Positions 21,809-25,013 of a stretch of DNA of 64,000 nt are shown here, piece by piece. The notes under the pieces are model-generated. The model ran no database searches. It saw nothing but the letters and a program-made list of their open reading frames with translations, and was not told where the DNA came from. The DNA lies in NCBI RefSeq assembly GCF_900142435.1, contig NZ_LT670846.1, positions 524,750 through 588,749 on the forward strand, written 5' to 3'. Numbering within the stretch: the stretch's first letter is position 1; each line of letters starts with the position of its first letter. This DNA is from Thermocrinis minervae. Lineage in GTDB: Bacteria; Aquificota; Aquificia; Aquificales; Aquificaceae. The position numbers and the translations under genes were made by a program.

Positions 21809-21872
21809 TTGACATGTGTTAAAATTAAGTTAATATTAAAATTAAATTAACGTTATAAATAACGTAGGAGGT
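21809..21872 (+). promoter_or_regulatory. Promoter, palindromic operator-like site and RBS of the bd-like operon
   Basis: TTGACA (21809-21814) and TAATAT (21831-21836) are separated by 16 bases, a good housekeeping promoter. Downstream is a perfect inverted repeat, ACGTTAT-AA-ATAACGT (21850-21865), covering the expected early transcript, and a TTAATATTAA palindrome overlaps the -10. GGAGGT (21867-21872) is the ribosome binding site, eight bases before the ATG at 21881. This is one of the few genes here with a clear leader and a candidate operator. Confidence 0.65.
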
Positions 21873-21880
21873 TAGCGGTC

Positions 21881-23290
21881 ATGGATGTGCTAGGTCTGTA
21901 CCCCATGTGGTACGTACCGATCTTTGGTAGTGCCTTTACCATAGCCCTAATAGCTACCATCCATGTGATGGCTTCACACACCTCTGTAGGAGCTTCCATA
22001 CTCCTCGCTTACCTTGCTACTAAAGCGTACAAAGAGAACAACCCAAAGATCTACGACTACATCAAAAAGTATCTTCTTGGTCTTCTTGTGTTTTCCTACG
22101 TGTCTGGATCTATAACTGGTCCGGGTATATGGTTTTCCGCAACAGTTGCCAACCCAAGGGGTATATCGGCACTCATACACAACTTCGTTTGGGTCTGGGC
22201 TTCTGAATGGATATGGTTCGTGGCAGAGGTCACGTTAGTCTACATACTCTTTTATACACTCGGACGCATAGATCAGAAGAGCTGGCTTAGGCTTGTATGG
22301 ACGTTCGCCATAGGATCATGGGCTACCATGTACGTGATAGTTGGAATACTCTCCTTCATGCTTTCTCCTGGACACGAAAAGTGGTTTACTACTGGTAATA
22401 TACTGGACGCTTTTTATAACAAGAACTACTTTCCACACCTACTTATGAGGAGCTCTTTTATGTTCGCCATAGCCGGTACCGTAGGTATAGCCATAGCAGC
22501 ATTGATGAAGAAGGACGTAGATGAAAAAACTTACAAAGACATAGTAAAGACTATGTCTTACTGGGGGATAGGGGGCATAGTCTTTGGCCTTATGTTCTTT
22601 GCTTGGTACGTATCTACACTACCAGAAAGATCCATACTACAGCTAAACTCCATCATACCCTCTTACCTTATAGTACCCTTAGGTATCATAGTTGTACTGC
22701 TGCTTGCCCACTTCCTCCTAACAGCAGTGAAACCTGATCTTGCAAGGGTGTGGGTAGCTTATCCTTTGTACATATCCATATTCTTCTTGGGTGTCTATCC
22801 AGAAGAGAAGATAAGGGAGACCATACGTAAACCTTACGTGGCTGGAGAGTTCGTATGGGTCAACCAGATTATAGCTAAGGATGTGCCGGCGAAGGGTATA
22901 AGCTCCGAGGTACCTGTAATAAACCAGAAGGGTCTACTCAAGCTGGATCCCTTCGTACCAGAGGGCCTAAAGACCATAACGCCTGAGAACAAGGTCATGG
23001 CTGGAAAAGCTTTTGCAGTCCTGGCCTGTTCTGGATGCCATAACGTAACAGGCTCCACAGGTCTGAGACCCTTCGGCCAGAAGTTTGCAGGCATGACCGA
23101 TGAAAACTCCGTGTATAACTTCTTGGTGTCTTACCTCAGAGACAACCCTCCGCCATACATGCCAAGGTTGGTGGGTACAGATGAAGAGATAAGAGCACTT
23201 GCCGCTTACATAGCAGACCTTGTATCCAAGGGTGGTTCTGTATCGGCCAGGATTGTAGTGCCTCAGAAGAGCTTAGAGGCTAAAAAGTAA
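21881..23290 (+). CDS. Cytochrome bd-like membrane subunit with C-terminal cytochrome c domain
   Basis: A 469-residue protein with about nine membrane helices (residues 10-310), including the histidine-rich TIALIATIHVMASHTSVGAS. A class I cytochrome c domain follows: haem motif CSGCH (Cys383, Cys386, His387) with Met427 in PPYMPRL as likely axial ligand. The membrane part resembles CydA-related quinol oxidase subunits of Aquificales and Nitrospira-type bacteria, but I cannot prove the haem ligands. Together with the next gene it probably forms a respiratory oxidase or electron-transfer complex. Classical CydA lacks a cytochrome c tail. Confidence 0.65.
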   Translation: MDVLGLYPMWYVPIFGSAFTIALIATIHVMASHTSVGASILLAYLATKAYKENNPKIYDYIKKYLLGLLVFSYVSGSITGPGIWFSATVANPRGISALIHNFVWVWASEWIWFVAEVTLVYILFYTLGRIDQKSWLRLVWTFAIGSWATMYVIVGILSFMLSPGHEKWFTTGNILDAFYNKNYFPHLLMRSSFMFAIAGTVGIAIAALMKKDVDEKTYKDIVKTMSYWGIGGIVFGLMFFAWYVSTLPERSILQLNSIIPSYLIVPLGIIVVLLLAHFLLTAVKPDLARVWVAYPLYISIFFLGVYPEEKIRETIRKPYVAGEFVWVNQIIAKDVPAKGISSEVPVINQKGLLKLDPFVPEGLKTITPENKVMAGKAFAVLACSGCHNVTGSTGLRPFGQKFAGMTDENSVYNFLVSYLRDNPPPYMPRLVGTDEEIRALAAYIADLVSKGGSVSARIVVPQKSLEAKK

Positions 23291-23294
23291 GGAG

Positions 23295-24593
23295 GTGAGT
23301 GAGATGGAGTTTGTAAGATGGTTCCTTCTCCTTGTGCTGTCTCTAATGCTGGTTTACGGATCTTCCTTTGCTGTGGATGTGGGTTCTCTCTTGAAAGCCC
23401 AGGCAGATAAAGCTGGCTCTCCCTTCTTTCCCGTCGTCATGCAGGTGCTACAGGTACTTACTTGGGCACTGCACATGTTGTTCGTCTATACATCAATAGG
23501 AGGGCTTTTTGTAAGCATATACGGCTATTCTAAAGGTGGAGAAAACTGGACTAGACTGGCTAAGGCCACCCTTGAGCTAGCAAAGGTGAGCGTGTCGCTT
23601 GCTATAGTACTTGGAGTGGCTCCGTTACTCTTTTATCAGGTTATCTACGATCCGCTTTGGTATACGTCTGCGAACCTTTCAGCTGCATGGTACATCATGT
23701 TCATAGTATTCCTACTCATAGGCTACTACATGATATGGGCATCCTACTTTATGAAAGACAACCCCAAAAGAGCCTTAGTATTCTCTTTACTAGGAGTCGT
23801 TTTTCTGCTGATGGTAGGTTTTATCATCCACGTGGTCAACTATCAGGCCCTCTATCCGGAGAAGTGGGTAGAGTGGTACACATCCGGTGGTACCACTATG
23901 AACACGAGTGGGTGGAACATATACGCCTTTAACCTCTTTAGATACCTGGCCTTCTTGGTCTTTCCAGCTGTTTCGGTTACGGGTGTACTCCTGATGCTGT
24001 ACAACTGGTACTTCTACCCGAGGGAGGACATGGATAAGGCTTACTTAGACTGGGCCGGGAGCGTTGGTTCTAAGTTGGCTCTTTATGGAGGATTAGGTTG
24101 GCTTTCTTCCCATACCCTTTACATCCTCTCAGTCCCATCCGAATGGGGAGTTAAGACTAATCCTATAACGTGGCTTAGCGTGCTTGGACTGTTGATCTGC
24201 GCCGGTGTTATCCTGGTAGCTCAGAAAAACCCTGCCAAATTCTCCATTCCTTCTGTTCTGTCTAGCTTTTTAGCCATACTGTTGGTAGCAGTCTTCAGGG
24301 AATACCTAAGGATGGCTTCAGTGGGGCGTTTTGGATACTCCATATACGAGTACAAGCTAAACTTAGAATGGTACAGCCCTCTGCTATTTCTCGGTACTAC
24401 GCTCACGGGTCTTATACTATACTCCTACGCATGGTGGATGGCCTACCGAGCCGGTAGGACACAACGCGGCAAAGTGTACGAAGCTAACGAAACGGAACAT
24501 CACTTGGGTGATGCGGCTGTATTCGTGGTCATCCTGTGGGCTATCGTGTGGATAGGAGTGGGACTTATAGTCATAGTCAGGAACTACGGCTGA
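23295..24593 (+). CDS. Second membrane subunit of the bd-like complex
   Basis: A 432-residue polytopic membrane protein with about nine helices, rich in Trp and Tyr, starting 5 bases after the cytochrome c-fused subunit. The first helix looks like a signal/anchor (FLLLVLSLMLVYGSSFAVDV). Conserved-looking histidines lie in LQVLTWALHMLFVY, VGFIIHVVNYQ and GWLSSHTLYILS. Pairing and topology suggest the CydB-like or second CydA-like partner of a quinol-oxidising complex. I found no haem c motif. A GC hairpin follows the gene. Confidence 0.6.
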   Translation: MSEMEFVRWFLLLVLSLMLVYGSSFAVDVGSLLKAQADKAGSPFFPVVMQVLQVLTWALHMLFVYTSIGGLFVSIYGYSKGGENWTRLAKATLELAKVSVSLAIVLGVAPLLFYQVIYDPLWYTSANLSAAWYIMFIVFLLIGYYMIWASYFMKDNPKRALVFSLLGVVFLLMVGFIIHVVNYQALYPEKWVEWYTSGGTTMNTSGWNIYAFNLFRYLAFLVFPAVSVTGVLLMLYNWYFYPREDMDKAYLDWAGSVGSKLALYGGLGWLSSHTLYILSVPSEWGVKTNPITWLSVLGLLICAGVILVAQKNPAKFSIPSVLSSFLAILLVAVFREYLRMASVGRFGYSIYEYKLNLEWYSPLLFLGTTLTGLILYSYAWWMAYRAGRTQRGKVYEANETEHHLGDAAVFVVILWAIVWIGVGLIVIVRNYG

Positions 24594-24638: not shown

Positions 24639-25013
24639 ATGAGGAGGATCTTAATCCTTTTACCCCTTATTCTCTCAATGGGAGAGCCCGTATACCTCAA
24701 AGAGGCAAAAGTAGAGGTTACAGACAAGTATGGCAACACCTTTGAGCTCTCTTCCCTGAGTTGCTCCGGCAAGGATTACCTTAGAGCAAAGGAAGGCGCT
24801 GTAGAGTTTTCAGTTCCTCTGTCGGAGATCAGGGACATTAAAGTTCTACAAGAGGAAGGAGATAGACTATCCGTCATGCTAACCCTGAGTTCAGGGAAGA
24901 GAGAGAAACTGCATGTATCAAAGAACCTTTACTGTGAAGGCAAGAGCTCCATAGGGAATGCCAGCTTCTATCTTAGAGACATAAAGGAAATCAGCATAAG
25001 GAGGGAAAGGTAA
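24639..25013 (+). CDS. Small exported protein of unknown function
   Basis: 124 residues with a short signal peptide (RRILILLPLILSMG) and a beta-rich, charged remainder containing two cysteines (Cys43 in LSCSGKD, Cys99 in NLYCEGKS) that could form a disulphide. No family recognised. TATAAT at 24624-24629 is nine bases upstream of the ATG, so the transcript is near-leaderless. It lies three bases before nuoA, suggesting co-transcription with the complex I genes. Confidence 0.7.
   Translation: MRRILILLPLILSMGEPVYLKEAKVEVTDKYGNTFELSSLSCSGKDYLRAKEGAVEFSVPLSEIRDIKVLQEEGDRLSVMLTLSSGKREKLHVSKNLYCEGKSSIGNASFYLRDIKEISIRRER

Follow-up and report, generated by a model that had tools for sequence, protein, structure and literature searches.

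Two adjacent genes of Thermocrinis minervae, a thermophile of the Aquificaceae, encoding the membrane proteins that we call subunits A and B, most likely belong, judging from sequence comparison, to the OR-C/CydAA' kind of the cytochrome bd superfamily, and we consider it probable (roughly 0.7) that the pair is a terminal oxidase of this kind fed by cytochrome c rather than by quinol. The OR-C family was named by Murali, Gennis and Hemp (2021, ISME J 15:3534), as cited in later papers (PMC13189123, PMC10839748, PMC12342949). The genes were found in a stretch of 64,000 nucleotides (the window) taken from the complete 1.37-Mb genome of the organism, in which the ORF of B lies directly 3' of that of A (Table 1). 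For B, the ATG at 23304, which stands 7 nt past an AGGAGG and gives a protein of 429 aa, is a more likely start than the GTG at 23295.

Table 1. Features of the A/B locus, in positions of the window.
Feature	Coordinates	Strand	Remarks
Sigma-70-like promoter	21809..21836	+	TTGACA at 21809-21814, 16-nt spacer, TAATAT; 10/12 consensus matches
Degraded Crp/Fnr-type site remnant	21816..21828	+	TGTT-AAAA-TTAA; from upstream-region comparison
Inverted repeat ACGTTAT-AA-ATAACGT, ACGTTATAAATAACGT	21850..21865	+	In the leader; probably chance
Subunit A ORF	21881..23290	+	469 aa; CydA-like membrane domain, then C-terminal class I cytochrome c
Subunit B ORF	23304..24593	+	Diverged CydA-like (CydA'), about 10 helices, without cytochrome c
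124-aa ORF	24639-25013		Signal-peptide-like start; between B and nuoA

Subunit A matched the Pfam family Cyt_bd_oxida_I (PF01654) over residues 20-227, with an E value of 1.1e-6, above the cut-off, and was the sole match to PF01654 in the T. minervae genome. When the profile of A was compared with the PDB, it matched 5doq_A, the CydA of the Geobacillus bd oxidase (E 1.7e-9), and the profile comparison with canonical CydA gave a modest match (E 4e-5, probability 70%). In a Foldseek search with the AlphaFold2 model of A (pLDDT 83), 5doq_A was again the best match (E 5.8e-7), and all 12 matches with E ≤0.001 were chains of bd oxidases; chains of alternative complex III appeared only from E 0.03 upward. 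The C-terminal tail (about residues 372-446) matched cytochrome c families of Pfam just under their own cut-offs, and its profile matched QcrC-type cytochromes c in the PDB. As had been predicted, A ends in a class I cytochrome c, with the CSGCH motif at residues 383-387 and Met427 present. Family, profile and predicted fold together indicate that A is a relative of CydA within the cytochrome bd superfamily.

For subunit B, no convincing match was found in Pfam or NCBIfam. Its profile aligned with that of A in hhalign (E 6.6e-7), and the AlphaFold2 model of B (pLDDT 90) gave bd oxidase chains as its top Foldseek matches, led by E. coli CydA (6rx4_A, E 1.5e-4). We considered and rejected B as a canonical CydB, as it showed no family match and its best fold match was CydA; on profile and model evidence, B is a second, diverged CydA-like protein, and not CydB. 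The description of both proteins in the original prediction, as polytopic and CydA-like, was thus supported by Pfam for A, and by Foldseek and profile comparison, including that of B with A, for both. Its figure of about nine helices each was inaccurate, as A has 8 membrane helices followed by the cytochrome c domain, and B has about 10. Structure prediction of the single subunits gave the fold of a bd oxidase, and not that of another family. Among 43 homologues of B, H57, H176, E333 and R336 were conserved in every one, and no conserved glutamates were found in the third helix. In Aquificaceae, B begins with a hydrophobic, signal-anchor-like extension (23304-23365 here), and the homologues of Proteobacteria and Campylobacterota are without one.

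The conservation of residues in A was counted over 47 homologues. H28, E109, E116, R190, E309, R312, E313, R316, K317 and P318 were invariant, as were C383, C386 and H387 of the cytochrome c domain, and M427 was kept in 46 of the 47. We take the active-site haem residues of E. coli CydA to be H19, E99, E107 and E445, and its b558 ligands to be H186 and M393. In the alignment of A to G. thermodenitrificans CydA, H28 corresponds to the active-site His, and E109/E116 correspond to the two glutamates of TM3. The segment E313-T-I-R316-K317-P318 of A, present in 47/47, resembles by eye the E445-x-G-R-Q-P/GRQPW motif of CydA; because the profile alignments end before this region, the equivalence of E313 to E445 rests on the motif reading and the fold.

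The features of a quinol oxidase (qOR) were not retained in the same way. In the AlphaFold2 model of A, helices six and seven are separated by about 15 residues (245-261), and because this segment is so short, the quinol loop (Q-loop) is absent. The b558 ligand pair is not conserved, as the His position (186) holds His in 34 of the 47 homologues, Gln in 10 and Ser in 3, and their seventh helix holds no conserved Met or His as a partner. The CydB partner is also missing, and a search of the T. minervae genome with PF02322 (CydB) gave no match. Since most homologues, A of T. minervae among them, retain His at residue 186, a low-spin haem may be located near the old b558 site. The suspicion that the complex may not be a plain quinol oxidase was well placed: it is probably not one, as the active-site haem residues are kept and the quinol loop is missing.

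An alternative that draws on the same data is that the enzyme is fed by quinol at a non-canonical site, the fused haem c serving as the electron exit of a quinol:cytochrome c reductase or as a side branch. The b558-position His kept in 34/47 homologues would agree with this possibility, which was also the second option of the original prediction, and archaeal CydAA' enzymes are reported by the authors who named OR-C to be quinol users. However, we regard the quinol-fed alternative as unlikely, since it has to do without a Q-loop and without a conserved Met/His partner for b558, since the full set of oxygen-reducing residues, needless for a cytochrome c reductase, is kept, and since the chains of alternative complex III are far weaker fold matches. 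Between the two options offered earlier for the haem c, the sequence favours the entry of electrons from a c-type carrier over the exit of quinol electrons.

The arrangement of A in the membrane was assessed from the charges of its loops, in which K and R numbered 11 in 59 inside residues as compared with 4 in 89 outside residues, being about four times denser inside. This positive-inside distribution over eight helices places both the N-terminus of A and the cytochrome c domain in the periplasm. Canonical CydA has a ninth helix; in A, this helix seems to be replaced by the cytochrome c domain, joined right after the E313 motif. Because of this junction, we propose that the cytochrome c feeds the b595/d site directly.

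In the cytochrome c-fed oxidase that we prefer, the bc1 complex would reduce a periplasmic c-type cytochrome, which would donate electrons to the haem c at the C-terminus of A; this haem would be tethered on the periplasmic face right after the E-x-x-R-K-P motif, beside the two active-site haems. The electrons would pass to b595-like and d-like (or b-type) haems at H28, E109/E116 and E313 of A, and O2 would be reduced at this di-haem site with cytoplasmic protons. B would be the CydA' partner in the place of CydB, with conserved His residues of its own (H57 and H176). We infer the haem content, the cytochrome c donor, the O2 acceptor and the formation of an A-B complex in this scheme. The genome encodes a bc1-type cytochrome b and six matches to the cytochrome c family PF00034, the domain of A being counted among them, and a search for heme-copper oxidases found two members only, apparently of the A-type and the ba3-type by our own reading. 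To the further proposal that haem c beside b595/d replaces b558 together with the quinol site, making the pair a genuine cytochrome c oxidase that is not of the heme-copper superfamily, used alongside two heme-copper oxidases in the minimal genome of a thermophile, we would give even odds.

As compared with the canonical bd quinol oxidase (CydAB, qOR), A is alike in fold and in the residues aligned with H19/E99/E107/E445, but has neither the Q-loop, the conserved b558 pair nor the ninth helix, and carries a periplasmic cytochrome c; its partner B is CydA-like, and not CydB. A shares with OR-C, as defined here through secondary papers, the character of a bd-superfamily CydA with a c-type haem and no quinol site, the 'C' of the name presumably denoting the fused c-type haem. 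B of Aquificaceae carries an extra N-terminal helix. OR-N relatives likewise have no quinol site, with cytochrome c as their presumed donor (PMC10839748), and the OR-N CydAA' of Nitrospirota and Nitrospinota (NIDE0901-like) has two CydA-like subunits with cytochrome c as the proposed donor (PMC10839748, PMC12342949). The present pair resembles OR-N CydAA' in having two CydA-like subunits without a quinol site, but OR-N is separate from OR-C in the published scheme. The cytochrome c here lies within subunit A.

At an identity of at least 77%, A was found in 13 of the 37 genomes of the same family that were searched, T. minervae included, and its identity across Aquificaceae was 77-83%. Four genomes from a second family of the order (which we call Hydrogenothermaceae-like) carried a version of A at 34% identity. 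At four Hydrogenothermaceae-like loci (L014-L017), both subunits carry a C-terminal cytochrome c domain, with a CxxCH each. A search of species genomes gave 143 loci, of which 80 were kept, spanning, for example, Campylobacterota, Proteobacteria and Verrucomicrobiota. B came after A at nearly every locus with downstream sequence to inspect, the automatic downstream pick being another frame at two loci (L042 and L049), and this two-gene arrangement is shared by Aquificaceae, Campylobacterota, Proteobacteria and Verrucomicrobiota. A tree of A separated the Aquificaceae from the Proteobacteria and Campylobacterota with modest support, and the group at 34% identity was too distant for placement. 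The contig RFFP01000015.1, labelled as part of an Acidobacteria MAG, fell with Aquificaceae in this tree and is probably misbinned. Three other weak matches in relatives (L018-L020) were set aside, as they proved to be canonical CydA. In Proteobacteria and Campylobacterota, the commonest neighbours of the pair were cytochrome c families. The family is widespread and named, and apparently uncharacterised; we found no biochemical study of a cytochrome c-fused CydA in the literature searched.

The pair had been described as followed by nuoA-B-CD-H. We found that nuoA-, nuoB-, nuoCD- and nuoH-like ORFs, named by sequence reading, do follow, but only after an intervening ORF of 124 aa, for which searches of Pfam and NCBIfam gave zero matches. 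The adjacency to nuo is not conserved in relatives, whose neighbourhoods differ, and the nuo genes were therefore rejected as functional partners of A and B.

With regard to the promoter, TTGAC was found in the corresponding position in most Aquificaceae, and also in Hydrogenothermaceae-like relatives, and the number of promoter-like sites of such quality in the region was not above that in shuffled sequences. In one relative (G008, near position 402339 of contig C1), A has lost its promoter and its initial codons; the preceding gene, which by eye looks like moaA, extends nearly up to A, and no ATG comes before about residue 9. The palindrome TTAATATTAA, predicted over the -10, is present at 21830-21839. 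The perfect inverted repeat is present as well, but its proposed role as an operator was not sustained, the repeat being neither conserved nor over-represented. Perfect repeats with 7-bp arms and a gap of 0-4 occurred in 6.6-7.2% of shuffled upstream regions (p ~0.07), and this repeat was absent from the upstream regions of relatives. A genome search for it elsewhere, as had been suggested, showed it to be unique, with near matches of at most 3 mismatches numbering 65 as compared with 54 in the control, which is no excess. From the genome pattern search, the shuffles and the leaders of relatives, the repeat was rejected as an operator, and it is probably due to chance.

In relatives, a Crp/Fnr-type site, TGAT-N4-ATCA (TGAT-AAAA-ATCA), was found with at most one mismatch between the -35 and the -10. 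The best half-site match in T. minervae has 3 mismatches in 8, whereas 10 of the 13 promoters in the comparison have at most one. The word ATGAT-N4-ATCAT occurred in 3-19 copies in 12 of 13 Aquificaceae genomes (none in G030), as compared with 0-2 copies of the reversed control, and these counts suggest a Crp/Fnr-type regulon reaching past the A/B pair in Aquificaceae. A promoter site within one mismatch was present in 9/9 genomes with a second Crp-family protein and in 1/4 genomes without (Fisher p 0.014, which overstates independence because the genomes are related); the second Crp-family proteins fall into two or more types, and the 13 genomes include incomplete ones. Both the intact site and the second Crp-family regulator, kept by most relatives, are missing from the T. 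minervae genome. A Crp/Fnr-type site at such a position would usually repress. In most relatives, GTTAA/TTAAC-like words also recur in the leader, past the -10 and ahead of the ribosome-binding site (21840-21865 here); they are possibly another operator, or just AT-rich sequence.

Since the promoter of relatives carries a Crp/Fnr-type site, and regulators of this type are used for NO and for anoxia besides O2, and since bd enzymes are described in the literature as acting on NO and peroxide too, the pair might instead be a cytochrome c-fed reductase of another small molecule, such as nitric oxide or peroxide, working through the bd di-haem site. This seems to us quite improbable, given that a genome of 1.37 Mb has retained the pair, that the heme-copper search in it found two members only, apparently of the A-type and the ba3-type, and no further one such as an NO reductase, and that the residues of the O2 site are all invariant, although neither point is decisive. 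A degenerate or non-catalytic pair, for instance an anchor for cytochrome c, would fit a literature without a known activity for the family and the truncated A of G008, which lacks its promoter and initial codons, but it is very hard to reconcile with 77-83% identity in Aquificaceae and with haem residues invariant over several phyla. A reading of A and B as alternative complex III or an NrfD-type protein was rejected on its weak fold matches; alternative complex III is also a respiratory membrane complex with haem c, but its chains match A at E 0.03 or worse, as compared with 5.8e-7 for bd chains, and no act genes (the set of that complex) were recognised among the ORFs adjoining A and B.

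To our knowledge, quinol is the electron donor of the bd oxidases characterised so far. The cytochrome c-bearing bd branch has been named from sequence, and the literature searched held no biochemistry on it. Its thermostable homologues in Aquificaceae are good candidates for purification, and their study would test whether bd enzymes can act as cytochrome c oxidases, by which route electrons bypass b558, and how large a proton-motive force such an enzyme makes.
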